A DNA stretch of 64,000 bases from Neoaquamicrobium microcysteis (lineage in GTDB: Bacteria > Pseudomonadota > Alphaproteobacteria > Rhizobiales > Rhizobiaceae), in contig NZ_VSZS01000055.1 in the NCBI RefSeq assembly GCF_008180155.1, positions 1 through 64,000 of the forward strand, given 5' to 3'. The number at the start of each line of letters is the position of its first letter. The first letter of the stretch is position 1. Below, one piece after another: positions 40,993 through 63,746 of this stretch. The translations under genes were made by a program, and so were the position numbers. The notes beneath the pieces are model-generated. The model made no database searches and was not told the DNA's origin. It was given only the letters and a program-made list of their open reading frames with translations.

Positions 40993-43533
40993 TCAGGCGA
41001 TGAGAGCCACCGCCTCATCGCCGATCCAGGCGTTGATCTTCGCAGCCAGCTTGTTGGGCGACACCGGCTTCGACAGGTAGTCGTCCATTCCTGCCTCGAT
41101 GCATTTCTCGCGGTCGCCCTTGAGCGCGTGGGCGGTGACGCCGATGATGGGGGTTCGCGTGCCGATACCTTCCTCGGCCTTGCGGATGGCGGCCGCGGCC
41201 TCAAGGCCGTTCATCTCCGGCATCGAAACGTCCATCAGCATCAGGCGCGGCCGCAACGTGCGATGCATCTCGACGGCGGTGCGGCCGTTGGAGGCGATGC
41301 GGTAGGAGAGGCCGAGACCGTCGAGTATCTGGCTGAAGACGAGCTGGTTCACCTCGTTGTCTTCGGCAACCAGGATGTCGAGCTGGCGACCGGTGCCGGC
41401 GCGCGGCGCAGGATGAACGGGCTTCGGCGCGGCGCTTGCCGCCTTCTGGGCGAAATTGGGAACCGGCGCGATGTTTCGCACCGCGCTCTCGCGCCGCGGC
41501 GCAGCTCGCGCCACCTGCATCATGGTGACAAGCGTTTCGAGCAGCGCGGAAGAACGCGCAGGCTTGTTGAGATGCGCGGCGATGCCCGATTCCATCGTGA
41601 GCTTGCCGGTGACGGCCTGATCGACGGACGTCAGCAGCAGGACGGGGATGTTCCACGTCGCGGGGTTGGCGGCGATGCGGCGCGCAACCTCCAGCCCGTT
41701 GATGCCCGGCATCTGGTAGTCGAGGATGATGCAGTCCACCCGCGCGCCCAGATGGGTCGCGCGGTCGAGGAAGGCGAGGCCGACCTCGCCGTTCTCGGCT
41801 GCCGCGCAGTCGAAGTTCCAGCTGCGAAGCTGTTCCAGCAGGATGTCGCGATTGACCTTGTTGTCGTCAATGACCAGCACGCGCGCACCCGATACATCGA
41901 CGGGAACGGGCCGTGCCGGCTCCATGTCCTCGAAGACGGGCAGCGGCACCGTGAACCAGAAGGTCGAGCCCTTGCCCAGTTCGCTGGTCAGCCCCATCTG
42001 GCCGCCCATCAGCTCGACGAGGCGCGAGGCGATCGCAAGGCCGAGCCCCGTGCCTTCGTGGCGGCGGGTGGACGACGCATCGACCTGACTGAACTTTTCG
42101 AACACCCTGGTCTGCATCTCAGGTGGAATGCCGATGCCGGTATCCTCGACCCGAACGGTGACGTGCGAGGTTCCGTTCTCGACATGGCCGCTGACATCGA
42201 CCAGCACGTGGCCCTTCTCGGTGAACTTGACGCCGTTGCCGACGAGATTGGTGACGATCTGCCTTATGCGGCCGACATCGCCGACGACGCAGGCCGGCAG
42301 TTCGGGATCGACGCGCACGATGAGCTCGAGGTCTTTCTCCGCGACACGGGTGGAGACCAGCGTCGCGACGTCCTCGATAGCCTCGCCGAGACGGAAGGGT
42401 GCGGGATCGAGGCTGAGCTGCCCTGCGTCGATCTTGGAGAAATCGAGGATGTCGTTGATGATCGTGAGAAGCGCGTTGCCCGACTTGAGGATCACGTCGG
42501 CAAAGGTCTTCTGGCGGTTGTCTAGGTCGGTGCGCACCAGCAGTTCAGCCATGCCGAGCACACCGTTCATCGGCGTCCTGATCTCGTGGCTCATATTGGC
42601 CAGGAATTCCGACTTCGCGCGGTCGGCGGATTCGGCCTTCACACGCGCCGCCTCGATCGAGGCGTTGGCCCGCTGCAGGTCGTCATGTGCGTGGGCAATG
42701 TTGCGCATCATGGGCACGAAGACCCACAGGGTGGTGAACACGCCGACGACGAAGATCACGGCGGCGACCATGTACAGGATCTTTTCGAGCCAGTCGTAGC
42801 CCTTGATGGTGTCGGCGCGCAGCTCGACCATTGTGGAGTCGAGGTTGGGCCGCACCCGGTCGTTGGCGATCATCTGGATTTGCGTGAACACGCGCTGGGC
42901 GGCTGGAAGCGACAGGTCGGCGAACATGTCGAGCCGGTTTGCCAGCGTGATGATCTCCAGCACGTCCTGCCGAAGCGAGAACGTCTGTCCCTCGCCGTTC
43001 CACAAGCTCAGCAGCGAGGGCGGTACCGCGATGCCCCTGATGTCGGCGAGTATGCCCGCAAGATCGCCGGTCAGGCTGTCGTCCGCGCCGGCCTGCGGAG
43101 GCGTTTCGACAGGGAAATCGCTGCCCGCAGCTTCGCCGAAGGCGCGATAGGTATGGTCGAGACGCGTGATTGCCGCATGCAGGTTTGCCTGTACGACCTT
43201 CGTCGTCGCAGCCGCGTCGAAGACAGGCTGCGCCACGACCGGGCCTTTCGGCATGGCGAACTGGCCGGTCTCAATGTCCCTGATCGTGCGGTCGGCGCGC
43301 TCGCGGGCTAGGTCGGCCCGCAGCCGCACCTGATCGAGCATCAGCGCGTGGTAGATGACGTCGGCCGTCGCCTCGCTCATGGCGCCGAGCACGGCGCCGA
43401 ACTTGACGCTGGTTCTGGCCTCTCCGGCCTGCCAGTGGATGAGGCCGGCCCCGAGACCGACCGCAAGCAGAAAGCCGGTCATGATGAACATGAGACGGCC
43501 GCGCATATAGGCGCGCGTTACAGCAAACGACAT
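40993..43533 (-). CDS. Membrane hybrid histidine kinase with two receiver domains
   Basis: An 846-residue sensor. Transmembrane helices lie at about 14-36 and 252-275, enclosing a mostly helical periplasmic domain. The HisKA domain carries phospho-acceptor His316 in NMSHEIRTPMNG. The HATPase domain follows (N box NLVGNGVKF, then VEDTGIGIPPEM). Two receivers come after: LVIDDNKVNRD with Asp in IILDYQMPG, and LVAEDNEVNQL with Asp in LMDVSMPEMNG. I chose the ATG at 43533; a TTG upstream would add 15 residues. No partner regulator is adjacent. An exact TTAA-N7-TTAA box 51 bases upstream suggests CtrA control. Its signal is unknown. Confidence 0.93.
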   Translation of the reverse strand: MSFAVTRAYMRGRLMFIMTGFLLAVGLGAGLIHWQAGEARTSVKFGAVLGAMSEATADVIYHALMLDQVRLRADLARERADRTIRDIETGQFAMPKGPVVAQPVFDAAATTKVVQANLHAAITRLDHTYRAFGEAAGSDFPVETPPQAGADDSLTGDLAGILADIRGIAVPPSLLSLWNGEGQTFSLRQDVLEIITLANRLDMFADLSLPAAQRVFTQIQMIANDRVRPNLDSTMVELRADTIKGYDWLEKILYMVAAVIFVVGVFTTLWVFVPMMRNIAHAHDDLQRANASIEAARVKAESADRAKSEFLANMSHEIRTPMNGVLGMAELLVRTDLDNRQKTFADVILKSGNALLTIINDILDFSKIDAGQLSLDPAPFRLGEAIEDVATLVSTRVAEKDLELIVRVDPELPACVVGDVGRIRQIVTNLVGNGVKFTEKGHVLVDVSGHVENGTSHVTVRVEDTGIGIPPEMQTRVFEKFSQVDASSTRRHEGTGLGLAIASRLVELMGGQMGLTSELGKGSTFWFTVPLPVFEDMEPARPVPVDVSGARVLVIDDNKVNRDILLEQLRSWNFDCAAAENGEVGLAFLDRATHLGARVDCIILDYQMPGINGLEVARRIAANPATWNIPVLLLTSVDQAVTGKLTMESGIAAHLNKPARSSALLETLVTMMQVARAAPRRESAVRNIAPVPNFAQKAASAAPKPVHPAPRAGTGRQLDILVAEDNEVNQLVFSQILDGLGLSYRIASNGRTAVEMHRTLRPRLMLMDVSMPEMNGLEAAAAIRKAEEGIGTRTPIIGVTAHALKGDREKCIEAGMDDYLSKPVSPNKLAAKINAWIGDEAVALIA

Positions 43534-43583
43534 TGGCCCCAACCCGTTACCCGGTACACATGGGGCAAAATCGGGCAATCCGA

Positions 43584-43598
43584 TTAAAGTGCTGTTAA
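43584..43598. promoter_or_regulatory. CtrA-type box TTAA-N7-TTAA before the hybrid kinase gene
   Basis: TTAA at 43584-43587 and TTAA at 43595-43598 are separated by exactly seven bases, the consensus bound by the cell-cycle regulator CtrA. It lies 51 bases upstream of the kinase start codon, within normal promoter range. The gap otherwise holds only the end of the ispA-type gene. Confidence 0.5.
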
Positions 43599-59638: not shown

Positions 59639-60166
59639 TTACAAGGCAGCCGCCGCGATGGCCGCAGCCGCCAGCCGCCCCGTCGCGCTCTGTCGGTGAT
59701 GCGCGTGGCAGATGGCGATGGCAAGCGCGTCGGCGGCATCGTCGGTGTCGAACGAGGCCTTCGGCATCAGCACCCGCACCATCATGTGGATCTGCTTCTT
59801 GTCGCCATGGCCGACGCCGATGACAGCCTTCTTGACCGCGTTCGGCGCATATTCGGCGACCCGCAATCCCGCCAGCGCGGGCACCAGCATGGCGACGCCG
59901 CGCGCCTGGCCGAGCTTCAGCGTCGCGGTGGCGTCCTTGTTGACGAATGTCTGCTCGACCGCCGCCTCCTGCGGCATCTGGCCATGCACGACGGCACTCA
60001 GGCCGTCATGGATCTGGCAGAGGCGGGATGCGAGGTCGGCCTTGTCGTTGGAGCGCACGGTGCCGGCGGCCACGAAACGCAGCGCGTTGCCCTGCGCTTC
60101 CACGATGCCCCAGCCGGTGCGTCGTAGGCCGGGATCGATGCCGATGATGCGAATCGTCTCGTTCAT
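59639..60166 (-). CDS. ruvC: Holliday junction resolvase RuvC
   Basis: A 175-residue RNase H-like endonuclease that resolves Holliday junctions. Catalytic acids are visible in [14 protein letters not shown] (first Asp), VEQTFV (Glu) and the C-terminal [12 protein letters not shown] pair. It is the first gene of ruvCAB. It is separated from rcdA by about 90 bases with no clear promoter elements that I can assign. Confidence 0.97.
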
Positions 60167-60257
60167 GACCCCACACTATTCAGACGGCAATCAAATGCCA
60201 TCGAAATGTGAACAAAGCAGAAACGAATTGACAGATCGCTGTCGATGTCGGGGCGGG

Positions 60258-60791
60258 TCAGCCGCGCGCGAAAGCGGTGTGGAGCAGATTGATCTGGTCG
60301 GAAACCGGGTTGCCCGTGCGCAGGTGCGCAGGTGCTCGACGGTCGGCCGTTTCGCCGTAAATCTGGTCGTCCATGCGGCGCACCAGCGACTGCAGGCGGA
60401 GCGAATGATCGACGATAGACCGGAAATGCTCAGGCAGTTCGCTCCAGCCGACGGTGTCGCCGGGGGCGGACGCCGTGTCGAGCCGGACCTTGGCTTTTTC
60501 GGCCGCGACCTGGTCTCGGGTCATCTCGCCGGAATTGGCAGCGCGCTGCAGCAGCAGCCAGGAGGCGATCTGCATCAGGCGTGTGGTGAGGCGCATCGAT
60601 TCGGCGGCGTAGAGCGTGGCGCCTATGCGCGAAAGAGATTTGGCAGCGGCACGGCCTTCGCCGTCCAGATATTCCGCAGCCTGCTCAACGAGGCTCATGC
60701 CTTCATTATAGAGAGGCTTAAAGGAATTGGAGAATACGCGCCTTTCGGCGAGCTTGATCGTGTTCGTTGCCTCGTGACCCTGCTCGTGCAT
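60258..60791 (-). CDS. rcdA: RcdA-type adaptor (DUF1465), regulator of CtrA degradation
   Basis: A 177-residue helical protein of the DUF1465/RcdA family. A characteristic stretch runs FSNSFKPLYNEGMSLVEQAAEYLDGEG, cited in part as LVEQAAEYLDGEGR, followed by AAESMRLTTRLMQIASWLL and GEMTRDQVAAEK. In Caulobacter RcdA is an adaptor that helps ClpXP degrade CtrA at the G1-S transition. I chose the ATG at 60791, with GGGG about nine bases upstream, which gives the family's normal length. The gap upstream holds two exact CtrA-type boxes and a candidate small RNA. Feedback on CtrA is inferred from Caulobacter. Confidence 0.88.
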   Translation of the reverse strand: MHEQGHEATNTIKLAERRVFSNSFKPLYNEGMSLVEQAAEYLDGEGRAAAKSLSRIGATLYAAESMRLTTRLMQIASWLLLQRAANSGEMTRDQVAAEKAKVRLDTASAPGDTVGWSELPEHFRSIVDHSLRLQSLVRRMDDQIYGETADRRAPAHLRTGNPVSDQINLLHTAFARG

Positions 60792-60913
60792 GCCGCTACC
60801 CCGCAAATTACTGACGCCGCTTCGATCGAGACGGGCGCCGGCTCTCGGACGCCGGTGCCTAAACGATGTGGAGCGGACTTTGATCCCTCCGCCTGTCGAA
60901 GGCAAGCGCGTGT

Positions 60914-60928
60914 TTAACGAAAGGTTAA
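60914..60928. promoter_or_regulatory. CtrA-type box TTAA-N7-TTAA upstream of rcdA
   Basis: TTAA at 60914-60917 and 60925-60928 with exactly seven bases between, each followed by C as in the extended TTAAC form. It lies 123 bases before the rcdA ATG and between the small-RNA terminator and rcdA, so it is in position to drive rcdA. Confidence 0.6.
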
Positions 60929-60961
60929 CGGCCGAAATTGCGGTGCTCGGGAAGCGCCAGA

Positions 60962-61075
60962 CAAAAAAAGAGCCGCAAACGCGGCTCTCAGGAGTTAAAC
61001 AGGGAGGCGTCAAACGGAGTGGCCCAGCCACTCGGTAAGAATCCAGATCACTGGATGCACACAGTAATGACATGT
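60962..61075 (-). ncRNA. Candidate small RNA with three hairpins and an intrinsic terminator
   Basis: Read on the minus strand there are three successive stem-loops. The first is ATCCAG/CTGGAT with a four-base loop (61041-61056). The second is GAGTGG/CCACTC with a five-base loop (61017-61033). The last is an eight-base-pair G/C stem with a GTTT loop (60969-60988) running into seven T. Between the second and third lies an unpaired stretch with GCCTCCC, which could pair with Shine-Dalgarno sequences. No gene upstream needs this terminator: the next annotated gene on that strand starts at 62048 and ends at 61617. A CtrA-type box at 61081-61095 sits where a promoter would be. In-frame codons run on into rcdA but show no protein-like character. 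Confidence 0.5.
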
Positions 61076-61080
61076 AAAGC

Positions 61081-61095
61081 TTAACCGAAGCTTAA
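61081..61095. promoter_or_regulatory. Second CtrA-type box TTAA-N7-TTAA
   Basis: TTAA at 61081-61084 and 61092-61095 with seven bases between, followed by C; a further TTAA lies eight bases on. It lies just upstream of the candidate small RNA on the minus strand and 124 bases before the membrane-protein gene on the plus strand. Together with 60914-60928 it makes the 427-base gap 60792-61218 look like a regulatory region; I see no protein gene in it. Confidence 0.55.
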
Positions 61096-61218
61096 CACAG
61101 TGGTTAATTTTGCCTGAAATTGTGCCGATACGAGACAGTTTCGGTTCGTGCTATCGCATCGAAAAGCAAAACGAATCAGAACCCGCATCGGATACGGTGC
61201 GCCTGCCGGAGGTACTTC

Positions 61219-61620
61219 ATGCTTGCCCACGTCCCGCTGATGATCGTGCCGCTGGCGCTCTACAATCTGGGCCTTGCCGGACTGTTCGGCGACATCGCCG
61301 ATCCGTGGCAGACGGAACTGTTCTCATTGACCATGCTGTCGGGCGGAACCTGGACGCTTAGCCTTGCGGACCTGCTGGTGCTCGTGGCGCTGCTACTCCT
61401 CTTCGCCGAGGTGCTGAAGGCCACGCGCACCTCCAACGCCTCGGTGCTGGATCACCTGCTTTCGACGCTGGTATTCGTGGCGTTTCTGGTCGAGTTCCTG
61501 CTGGTGCGGCGCGCGGCAAGCTCGCTGTTCTTCATCCTGATGGCGATTGCGCTGGTGGATGTGCTGGCCGGCTTCGCCGTATCGCTCCGCGCGGCATCGC
61601 GCGACGTGAATTTCCGCTAA
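61219..61620 (+). CDS. Small multi-pass membrane protein of unknown function
   Basis: A 133-residue protein with four hydrophobic segments (about 5-22, 44-64, 78-96 and 100-120) and little else. GGAGG sits eight bases before the ATG at 61219, which decides the start over an in-frame ATG at 61120. The TTAA-N7-TTAA box 124 bases upstream could serve this gene. It converges on the GlcG/HbpS-like gene with a four-base overlap of ends. I do not recognise the family. Confidence 0.75.
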   Translation: MLAHVPLMIVPLALYNLGLAGLFGDIADPWQTELFSLTMLSGGTWTLSLADLLVLVALLLLFAEVLKATRTSNASVLDHLLSTLVFVAFLVEFLLVRRAASSLFFILMAIALVDVLAGFAVSLRAASRDVNFR

Positions 61621-62048
61621 CCGCCGTCGCCGACGAAGCCCGCCGCCTCGATGCCGGCGATCGCGCAGGCTTCGTCGTTGTCGGCGGTGTCGCCGGATAT
61701 ACCTACCGCACCGAGGATGCCGCCTTCGCGCGTTCTCACCAGCGCGCCGCCGGCGACCGGAACCACCTTGCCGCCACTGGCCACGGAAAGGGCTGCGGCG
61801 AAATGGGGACGGTCGATAGCCACGCCCTGCAGCCAGCGCGAGCCGGCACCCATGCCCAGAGCGCCGTAGGCCTTGCCGCTGGCCACCTGCAGCCGCAGGA
61901 ACGAGGCGCCGTCCTGACGCTGATAGGCGATCAGGTGCCCGCCGGCATCCAGCACGGCAACGCCCAAAGGCTTCAATCCGAGTTCGCCCGCTCTTGCGAA
62001 TGCCGCGTCGATGATGGCGTTGGCCTGTGCCAGTCCCAAAGTCGTCAT
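61617..62048 (-). CDS. GlcG/HbpS-family protein (DUF336)
   Basis: A 143-residue protein of the GlcG/HbpS family. Helical N-terminus (LAQANAIIDAAFARAGELGL), then LGVAVLDAGGHLIAYQRQDGA, and GGALVRTREGGILGAVGISGDTADNDEACAIAGI near the end, cited in part as GAVGISGDTADNDEAC. Members bind haem or stabilise cobalamin enzymes, and many are of unknown function. It is divergent from the gamma-glutamyltransferase-like gene. I cannot assign a specific role. Confidence 0.88.
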   Translation of the reverse strand: MTTLGLAQANAIIDAAFARAGELGLKPLGVAVLDAGGHLIAYQRQDGASFLRLQVASGKAYGALGMGAGSRWLQGVAIDRPHFAAALSVASGGKVVPVAGGALVRTREGGILGAVGISGDTADNDEACAIAGIEAAGFVGDGG

Positions 62049-62159
62049 GAAGGTCGTCCTCCGTTGATTGATCCCTGCCGCAAGCCTATGGCATCAGGTT
62101 GCATCTGGTAATAGGCGGCAAGGGCAAGTTGCCCGCTTGCCGAGAGAGGGGAAAAGCCG

Positions 62160-63746
62160 ATGCGCAGATTCGACCTTCCGGGGCGTTCGCCCGTCATCGC
62201 CGAAAACGGCATGGCCGCGACATCGCATCCGCTGGCCACCGCTACCGCGCTGTCGGTTCTCAAGGATGGCGGCAATGCGGTCGATGCGGCGATCGCGGCC
62301 TCGGCCACGCTCTGTGTCGTCGAACCTCACATGACCGGCATCGGCGGCGACTGCTTCGTCATTCTGGCCGAGCCGGACGGCTCCGTCCACGGGCTCAATG
62401 GCTCCGGCCGCGCGCCGGCGGCGGCCGATGCCGCCTGGTATCGCGACAACGGATACGAGACGATGCCGCAAACGGGCGTCCACGCCATCACCGCGCCCGG
62501 TGCGGTCGATGCGTGGGCACGGCTGGCCGAGCGCTTCGGCACGCTGGGTTTCGACCGGCTGTTTGCAGATGCTATCCACTATGCCGACGAGGGGTTTGCC
62601 GTGCATGCCCGCGTTGCCCGCGACTGGGCGATGCACGGCGAGGCGCTGCGAAAGGACGAGGGTGCGTCAAGGCATTGCCTGATCGGCGGCCATGCGCCAG
62701 CGGCTGGAACGCGCTTTCGCTTCCAGGCGCTGGCAAGAACTCTGGAAGCGATCGCCCGGGGCGGAGCGCGCGCCTTCTACGAGGGCGAGATCGCGGCCGA
62801 GATGGCGGCCACCGTGCGCGCCGGCGGCGGGTTCCTCACCGAAGCAGACCTCGCCGCCGTGGAAGCTGATTGGGTGACGCCGATTTCCGTGCGCTATGGC
62901 GGCCACGACGTGCTGGAAATCCCGCCCAACGGGCAGGGCATCACTGCGTTGATCCTGCTGCGGCTGATGGAGGCGCGCGGGGTGGGCCGGTTCGAGCGTG
63001 GCAGTGCGGCGCGCCACCACATGGAGATCGAGGCGGCGCGGCTCGCCTATTCGGTGCGCGACCATCTCGTCGCCGATCCGTCATCCATGACACGCACGCC
63101 CGAGGAGCTCCTGTCCGACAGCTTCATCGAGCAGTTGGCGGCGCAGATGCTGGAAGACCGGCGCAACCCGTCGATCCGCATTCCCCCGATGCCCGGCTCC
63201 GACACCGTGTACCTCACCGTGGTGGATCGTGATCGCCGCGCCGTGTCGTTCATCAACTCGATCTACAGCGCCTTCGGCTCCAAGGTGGTGACGCCCAAGT
63301 CGGGCATCGCGCTGCAAAACCGTGGCGGCTGTTTCACGCTTGAGCAAGGCCACGCCAACGAACTTCGCGGCGGGAGGAAGCCAATGCACACCATCATCCC
63401 GGCCATGGCGCTCAAAGACGGCAAGGCGGCCGTCTCGTTCGGCGTCATGGGCGGCGACTACCAGCCCATGGGTCACGCACACGTACTCTCCAATCTCGTG
63501 GATCACGGGATGGACGCGCAGGAGGCGATCGACGATGCGCGCTTGTTCTGGGGTGATGACGGGGTGCTGGATGCGGAAATCGGCATCTCGGCGGACGTTC
63601 GGGCCCAACTCACCGCCATGGGGCACCAGGTGCGCAACGCGGCTTCCCCGCACGGGGGCGGTCAGATGATCGTCATCGACCATGCCAACGGTTTTCTCGT
63701 TGGCGCGTCGGACCCGCGCAAGGACGGCTGCGCGCTGGGGTGGTAA
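62160..63746 (+). CDS. Gamma-glutamyltransferase-family enzyme
   Basis: A 528-residue Ntn-hydrolase precursor. The large-subunit part has MAATSHPLATATALSVLKDGGNAVDA and GIGGDCFVIL. The predicted autocleavage and nucleophile is Thr349 at the start of TVYLTVVDRDRRAVSF, where the usual TTHxSVVD reads TVYLTVVD. The C-terminal half has GSKVVTPKSGIALQNRG. No signal peptide is visible, so it is probably cytoplasmic, as in other rhizobial GGT-like proteins that act on oxamate, cephalosporin-type or other gamma-glutamyl substrates. GAGGGGAAAAG precedes the ATG. Confidence 0.88.
   Translation: MRRFDLPGRSPVIAENGMAATSHPLATATALSVLKDGGNAVDAAIAASATLCVVEPHMTGIGGDCFVILAEPDGSVHGLNGSGRAPAAADAAWYRDNGYETMPQTGVHAITAPGAVDAWARLAERFGTLGFDRLFADAIHYADEGFAVHARVARDWAMHGEALRKDEGASRHCLIGGHAPAAGTRFRFQALARTLEAIARGGARAFYEGEIAAEMAATVRAGGGFLTEADLAAVEADWVTPISVRYGGHDVLEIPPNGQGITALILLRLMEARGVGRFERGSAARHHMEIEAARLAYSVRDHLVADPSSMTRTPEELLSDSFIEQLAAQMLEDRRNPSIRIPPMPGSDTVYLTVVDRDRRAVSFINSIYSAFGSKVVTPKSGIALQNRGGCFTLEQGHANELRGGRKPMHTIIPAMALKDGKAAVSFGVMGGDYQPMGHAHVLSNLVDHGMDAQEAIDDARLFWGDDGVLDAEIGISADVRAQLTAMGHQVRNAASPHGGGQMIVIDHANGFLVGASDPRKDGCALGW

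Follow-up and report, generated by a model that had tools for sequence, protein, structure and literature searches.

The rcdA locus and its features

The window analysed here is the whole 64,000-nt stretch of Neoaquamicrobium microcysteis DNA. Near its end, rcdA is preceded on the same strand by a small RNA gene and two CtrA-type boxes, with the following features and their basis:

60258..60791, minus strand: rcdA, protease adaptor for CtrA degradation (NF051867, 3ctw, DUF1465)
60914..60928, minus strand: second TTAA-N7-TTAA box, presumed rcdA promoter box, between the terminator and rcdA (motif count, family split)
60963..61057, minus strand: sRNA gene of the RF02356/BjrC1505 family, about 94-95 nt (Rfam match and 58-locus conservation profile; 5' end inferred)
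60963..60989, minus strand: intrinsic terminator, a 9-pair stem then seven T (4 of 8 pairs changed on both sides)
60998..61015, minus strand: core GUUUGACGCCUCCCUGUU with exposed CCUCCC, presumed target-pairing (anti-Shine-Dalgarno) region (conservation and fold)
61017..61033, minus strand: hairpin 2, GAGTGG/CCACTC (5 of 6 pairs changed on both sides; 94.2% of cells paired)
61041..61056, minus strand: hairpin 1, ATCCAG/CTGGAT (3 of 6 pairs changed on both sides; 99.4% of cells paired)
61064..61069, minus strand: conserved -10-like element CATTAC, consensus near TATTAC (column profile)
61081..61095, minus strand: CtrA-type box TTAA-N7-TTAA, presumed sRNA promoter (58-locus columns, constant position, chance expectation)

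The first-pass annotation, made from the sequence of the window, had named the neighbouring gene rcdA, and its product indeed matches NCBIfam NF051867 at 202 bits (cut-off 170), the solved RcdA structure 3ctw at E 1e-28, and DUF1465. The three minus-strand hairpins that it described, the last a G/C stem running into seven T, are all present at 61056-60963; its interval of 60962-61095 takes in the promoter, and the RNA proper measures about 94 nt. Also borne out was its remark that no protein gene upstream on this strand explains the terminator, the nearest (HbpS-like) ending at 61617. Beside the sRNA promoter lies a divergent frame, 61120-61620 on the plus strand, of up to 166 aa, which is hydrophobic and has no Pfam or NCBIfam match.

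A conserved, structured RNA of the RF02356 family

In a search against Rfam, positions 60963-61102 of the minus strand matched RF02356 (BjrC1505, an alphaproteobacterial sRNA) at 73.8 bits, above the gathering score of 50, over model positions 1-140 and without truncation; this is the sole gathering-level Rfam match in the window and the sole RF02356 match in the genome. This full-length match bears out the proposal of a stand-alone small RNA gene and, together with stems kept by compensatory change, identifies the locus at the sequence level as a genuine member of an already catalogued RNA family. A B. japonicum report, Madhugiri 2012, is said to be tied to RF02356/BjrC1505.

To define the extent of the gene, 58 loci were oriented on the core and then aligned. 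Conservation sets in abruptly at TTWA (61095-61092), continues through TTAA (61084-61081), GCTTT (61080-61076) and a TATTACTG-like block (61069-61062), weakens until hairpin 1 begins at 61056, and fades past the T run at 60963. We read the first conserved block as promoter, in keeping with the many non-standard pairs that the 5' part of the Rfam alignment contains for this sequence, and the remainder as RNA, with a start probably near 61056-61058. The locus is like BjrC1505 in its full-length covariance match above the gathering score, its core and its terminator, and the first 45 or so positions of the RF02356 model are here read as a promoter with a CtrA-type box.

Covariance of the stems in related genomes, which the first-pass annotation had proposed as a check, was evaluated on a MAFFT alignment not fitted to the structure, comprising 58 RNAs with 55 distinct sequences. 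Both sides had changed in 12 of the 20 pairs, 96.8% of cells were standard pairs, and none of 500 shuffles reached any of the five measures; when partners were slid by 1-3 columns, pairing fell to 35-54%. These figures are to be taken as support and not as a probability, as related rows share ancestry, and for the same reason the locus counts given throughout are not independent events.

Folded alone, the 94-nt RNA (61056 to 60963) reached -37.0 kcal/mol (z -4.4), a value that none of 200 shuffles equalled, and both CGCCUCCCUGUUUAACUCCU and CGCCUCCCUGUU of the core were unpaired. In the minimum-energy fold of a longer stretch and in the Rfam consensus, CCUCCC occupies the six-base loop of a weak hairpin. 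The CCTCCC at 61007-61002 (minus strand), noted earlier as exposed between hairpin 2 and the terminator, is thus predicted to be accessible in each fold, either unpaired or in a loop. The core is also the most conserved stretch of the RNA: 44 of 58 loci agree throughout its 18 bases, 56 of 58 contain CTCCCTGT, and CCUCCCUGUU is kept although no covarying stem needs it. The seven-U tail is compatible with an Hfq-dependent trans-acting RNA, and nothing more. A coding origin for the conserved stretch was rejected: the 271-aa frame extending from 61073 across the RNA and into rcdA stays uninterrupted over the RNA in only 3 of 54 loci, and ATG codons hold no fixed place, the commonest position being shared by 8 of 58. 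Some ATG, GTG or TTG inside the RNA opens at least 10 codons over the core in 34 of 58 loci, in mixed frames.

Distribution and linkage to rcdA

With a cut-off of E 0.001, RF02356 was detected in 33 of 40 relatives and in none of 14 control genomes; across the order it was present in 205 of 249 genomes, 175 of which exceeded the gathering score. Among the 58 loci, which were selected by the RNA, rcdA lies downstream and codirectional in 54; the remaining four keep the RNA without rcdA in the fetched flank, and in one of them rcdA is 4.6 kb away. In an RNA-blind test, named genomes were searched with an RcdA alignment, the best 80 of at least 582 relatives were kept, and their loci were scanned by means of a model derived from the 58 RNAs. 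The RNA was found upstream of rcdA in 79 of these best 80 (E at most 2.3e-5), which come from close relatives (Mesorhizobium, Brucella, Phyllobacterium, Nitratireductor, Agrobacterium and others) and therefore sample a single part of the tree densely. At the exception, locus L095 of Pseudaminobacter arsenicus, a TTAA-N7-TTAA box precedes rcdA and no RNA was detected, making this species a natural comparison strain. Across 133 loci, 79 of them from the best 80 of at least 582, RNA and rcdA are separated by 112-382 nt on the same strand.

The RNA has diverged (UUUUCUCCCUGUUUU) in Agrobacterium bohemicum (L130) and several other family members, with CUCCCUGUU, the terminator and the genomic place retained; none of six diverged loci tested reached the Rfam gathering score. 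We also took 27 genomes of the order, 20 without and 7 with a listed RF02356 match, a sample picked for lacking or weak RNA matches, in which RcdA occurs in 21. Scored with our own model with filters off, at E 0.002 or better, a diverged copy lies upstream of rcdA in 10 of the 14 sampled genomes that have RcdA and lack a listed match; by the same model, filters off, no copy was found upstream in G012, G031, G071 and G080, where RcdA is present. The absence of RF02356 from some genomes of the order is thus partly a matter of divergence. The six sampled genomes without RcdA (G013, G026, G068, G087, G108 and G123) are all without a listed RF02356 match, a hint, in a sample picked for lacking or weak RNA matches, that RNA and RcdA were lost jointly.

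Class-wide, 29 of 289 genomes matched our own model, 26 of them outside the order, and RcdA lies downstream on the same strand in 11 of 27 loci fetched from outside the order, close relatives included. By its distribution, the linkage of RNA and rcdA is old. In open-licence PMC literature we found no paper on this linkage or on the box, no paper naming RF02356, and BjrC1505 named once, in a Herbaspirillum table. What is new here is the linkage to rcdA and the order of the two boxes; the RNA family itself was already catalogued.

A CtrA-type box at a near-constant position upstream of the RNA

A simple sigma-70 scan of 60000-62500 found no promoter. The TTAA-N7-TTAA box that the first-pass annotation had placed where a promoter would lie was found at 61081-61095, and its columns across the 58 loci read T57 T57 A40/T18 A58, N7, T56 T58 A57 A52, the first half-site being TTTA instead of TTAA in 18. 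In the 60 nt that precede the RNA start, the degenerate form TTWA-N7-TTAR is present at 56 of 58 loci and in 12 of 16 diverged copies, and the exact form upstream of the RNA in 31 and 8, respectively, against 0.25 and 0.08 in single-base shuffles; the box has a position of -36 to -38 relative to that start at 53 of the 58 loci and in 6 of the 16 diverged copies. Among the 79 named loci (from the best 80 of at least 582), the corresponding counts are 75 for the degenerate form, 67 for the exact form against 0.16 in single-base shuffles, and 75 for the position. Outside the window's family the box precedes the RNA in degenerate form at 39 of 41 loci and in exact form at 16 of 41. The window as a whole holds three TTAA-N7-TTAA boxes against 0.03 expected, two of them at the sRNA-rcdA locus. 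The third (43584-43598) lies just upstream of the minus-strand ORF 40993-43578, which encodes an 861-aa hybrid sensor histidine kinase whose best NCBIfam models are BarA/TorS-like and below their cut-offs; the kinase gene is a candidate CtrA target.

CtrA itself scored above the NF045991 cut-off in 12 of 12 genomes searched, including that of N. microcysteis, and a CtrA-type box placed over the -35 region is associated with activation. Because the predicted site ahead of the RNA is retained both within and beyond the window's family, the proposed link of the RNA to CtrA is well supported. In S. meliloti, CtrA sites have been searched as TAA-N7-TTAAC, and one was reported upstream of rcdA (passages of PMC3616915).

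CtrA might instead bind this box to control rcdA, or act there as a repressor, with the RNA driven otherwise, for example by growth phase or stress. There is a precedent in EcpR1, a Rhizobiales-wide RNA with cell-cycle targets that is induced by stress and ppGpp (passages of PMC4414408), but the near-constant position of the box relative to the RNA start, upstream of the terminator, speaks against such an arrangement, which we consider quite improbable.

A second box between the terminator and rcdA

A further TTAA-N7-TTAA box follows the terminator, ahead of rcdA, in 88 of the 133 loci (79 of which are from the best 80 of at least 582), compared with 0.16 from shuffles. Its occurrence divides by group: in the window's family it is found at 15 of 16 loci, in other families at 0 of 38 in exact form and 1 of 38 in degenerate form, and among the named loci at 73 of 79 (from the best 80 of at least 582). 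Since the upstream box is kept outside the family (39/41), where the rcdA-adjacent box is absent (0/38), the widely conserved CtrA-type box appears to belong to the RNA, and rcdA's own box looks like a family addition.

This distribution bears on whether the element is a gene at all, or instead the 5' leader of rcdA, an attenuator whose terminator is sometimes read through, such that rcdA would be regulated in cis. The old, same-strand linkage at short distance is what a leader would display, and outside the window's family rcdA is without its own TTAA-N7-TTAA box, which leaves room for read-through; the 0/38 count raised our estimate for a leader slightly and lowered that for an independent sRNA gene from about 0.66 to 0.64. 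Weighing against a leader are the separate box that rcdA possesses in nearly all family and named loci, the fold, in which no alternative pairing able to undo the terminator is seen, and the four loci that keep the RNA without an adjacent rcdA. In addition, the conservation of the core is unexplained by a leader alone. We regard a leader as unlikely, and continue with an independent sRNA gene as the preferred reading.

Candidate targets of the core

The first-pass annotation had further proposed that the RNA represses mRNAs by covering their Shine-Dalgarno sequences. One part of this stands, in that CCUCCCUGUU belongs to the most conserved stretch and complements GGGAGG ribosome-binding sites, which leaves such repression plausible on sequence grounds; for the other part, no target set passed a specificity control. 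When ACAGGGAGG was sought at Shine-Dalgarno distance in eight genomes of the genus, 108 matches were obtained, eight of which are the RNA gene read on its other strand. Loci were fetched for 30 of the 108; two are the RNA gene, and 10 of the other 28 encode solute-binding proteins of TRAP, TAXI, NMT1, TctC or branched-chain-type transporters. Permuted flanks around the same GGGAGG gave 105 and 99 matches, with solute-binding-protein genes at 3 of 30 and 8 of 30. These classes were read from translations, with Pfam confirming the 10 test loci and 10 of 11 control loci; that check left out L278 (close to L267), the remaining loci were classed by visual inspection, and one site is counted twice in each of the sets (L186/L194, L233/L241 and L253/L261).

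Transporter genes are thus weakly preferred over the controls (10/28 against 3/30 and 8/30). As permuted flanks also yield them, however, they must be common among GGGAGG sites in this genus, and the RNA's own flank adds little that could be demonstrated. Within one solute-binding-protein family, GGGAG is present in 17 of 21 homologues and ACAGGGAG in 3 of 21, and the ACAGGGAG site of that candidate is missing from the genome of N. microcysteis. The case for these genes as specific targets, strong at first, was weakened by the permuted-flank controls and the 3/21 count, and we do not retain it. Our best guess at a target class is nevertheless nutrient-uptake mRNAs, because many GGGAGG sites in the genus lie ahead of genes for the periplasmic binding proteins of TRAP, TAXI and ABC transporters.

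The leaders of ctrA and gcrA were also considered as direct targets, and were rejected for want of a signal among 22 leaders: the core was predicted to pair with 11 leaders each of gcrA and ctrA no better than with shuffled leaders, 4 of 60 shuffles being as good in one case and 15 to 55 of 60 in the other 21 (G026, which has no RNA, and the paralogues L312, L313, L326 and L327 were left out). This result weighs on the idea that the RNA is the Rhizobiales counterpart of Caulobacter crescentus CcnA, a CtrA-activated RNA whose C-rich stretch acts on the ctrA and gcrA leaders. Compared by description, the two have in common a predicted CtrA promoter, an exposed C-rich stretch and the CtrA circuit, and the authors of the CcnA study found no clear CcnA-like homologue in S. 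meliloti (passages of PMC8959179). However, CcnA is encoded at the replication origin and not at rcdA, and CcnA-like pairing with the two leaders was not found here, leaving a counterpart of CcnA a very doubtful identification.

Comparison with other small RNAs

EcpR1 (SmelC291) is similar in being a Rhizobiales-wide small RNA tied to the cell cycle. It differs in its location, which is downstream of divK-pleD and, in both Methylosinus and S. meliloti, next to rpmG, and in having two stem-loop domains, induction by stress and ppGpp, and independence of Hfq (passages of PMC4414408); identity of our RNA, located upstream of rcdA, with EcpR1 was ruled out by locus and structure. GsrN of Caulobacter likewise pairs a C-rich loop with G-rich mRNA leaders, and differs in its locus, its general-stress sigma factor promoter, the location of its C-rich loop in the 5' part, and its activation of katG (passages of PMC5869019).

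SorY, SorX and suhB/mmgR (RF02651, RF02784 and RF00519) have in common with our RNA a CUCCCU stretch followed by a GC terminator, and their models score it at 18.9, 17.8 and 18.8 bits, where the gathering scores are 111, 46.6 and 41, which places it outside these three families. SorY affects the stability of the takP mRNA, by a cited title that of a metabolite transporter (passages of PMC6238624); with sequence similarity far below threshold, a parallel between SorY-takP and our RNA is suggestive only. Four loci outside the order (L158, L159, L161 and L162), with no RcdA in the fetched flank, combine a different 5' half with a similar 3' module of GCCUCCCUGU, ACUU and terminator. Together with SorY and mmgR, they hint at a wider set of alphaproteobacterial RNAs with a common 3' module.

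Discussion

The gene, its structure, its terminator, the box upstream of it and its linkage to rcdA are conserved. We infer from these features activation by CtrA, anti-Shine-Dalgarno pairing and repression, and our preferred reading, to which we assign a probability of about 0.64, is an independent gene for a trans-acting RF02356 sRNA, activated by CtrA, that would pair with GGGAGG sites and lower translation. Phosphorylated CtrA would bind TTAA-N7-TTAA over the -35 region and activate transcription from about 61057, and RNA polymerase would stop at the terminator at 60963, so that little or no rcdA mRNA would come from the sRNA promoter. The RNA would expose CCUCCCUGUU between hairpin 2 and the terminator for pairing with GGGAGG-type ribosome-binding sites, and the translation of a set of mRNAs would be lowered while CtrA is active.

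Such an arrangement bears on a published puzzle. In S. meliloti, ChIP-seq places CtrA at the rcdA promoter, and upon CtrA depletion rcdA expression is unchanged in a microarray and in qPCR and lacZ follow-up (passages of PMC4433202); agrobacterial rcdA is transcribed from several starts and carries a possible CtrA site, such sites lying further upstream than in Caulobacter (passages of PMC10469942). A CtrA-driven, terminated sRNA upstream of rcdA would account for these findings as the cited passages give them, and, judging from relatives, the CtrA site at S. meliloti rcdA may serve the sRNA. More tentatively, and with the odds somewhat against it, the Rhizobiales rcdA locus could be a two-product output of CtrA, in which an ancestral box drives the old sRNA and a family-added box drives rcdA, such that CtrA would start its own removal through RcdA and reprogramme translation through CCUCCC. 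CtrA peaks assigned to rcdA, like that of S. meliloti, would then belong to the RNA, and the constancy of rcdA mRNA on CtrA depletion would be explained.

In the open-licence literature searched, RF02356 has so far been a catalogue entry without function; its adjacency to rcdA and the CtrA-type box connect it with a bacterial cell-cycle circuit that is among the best studied. The sRNA may be the CtrA-linked small RNA that the authors of the CcnA study, in the passages cited above, did not clearly find in S. meliloti, and it offers a testable, direct explanation for the binding of CtrA without an rcdA response in that species.
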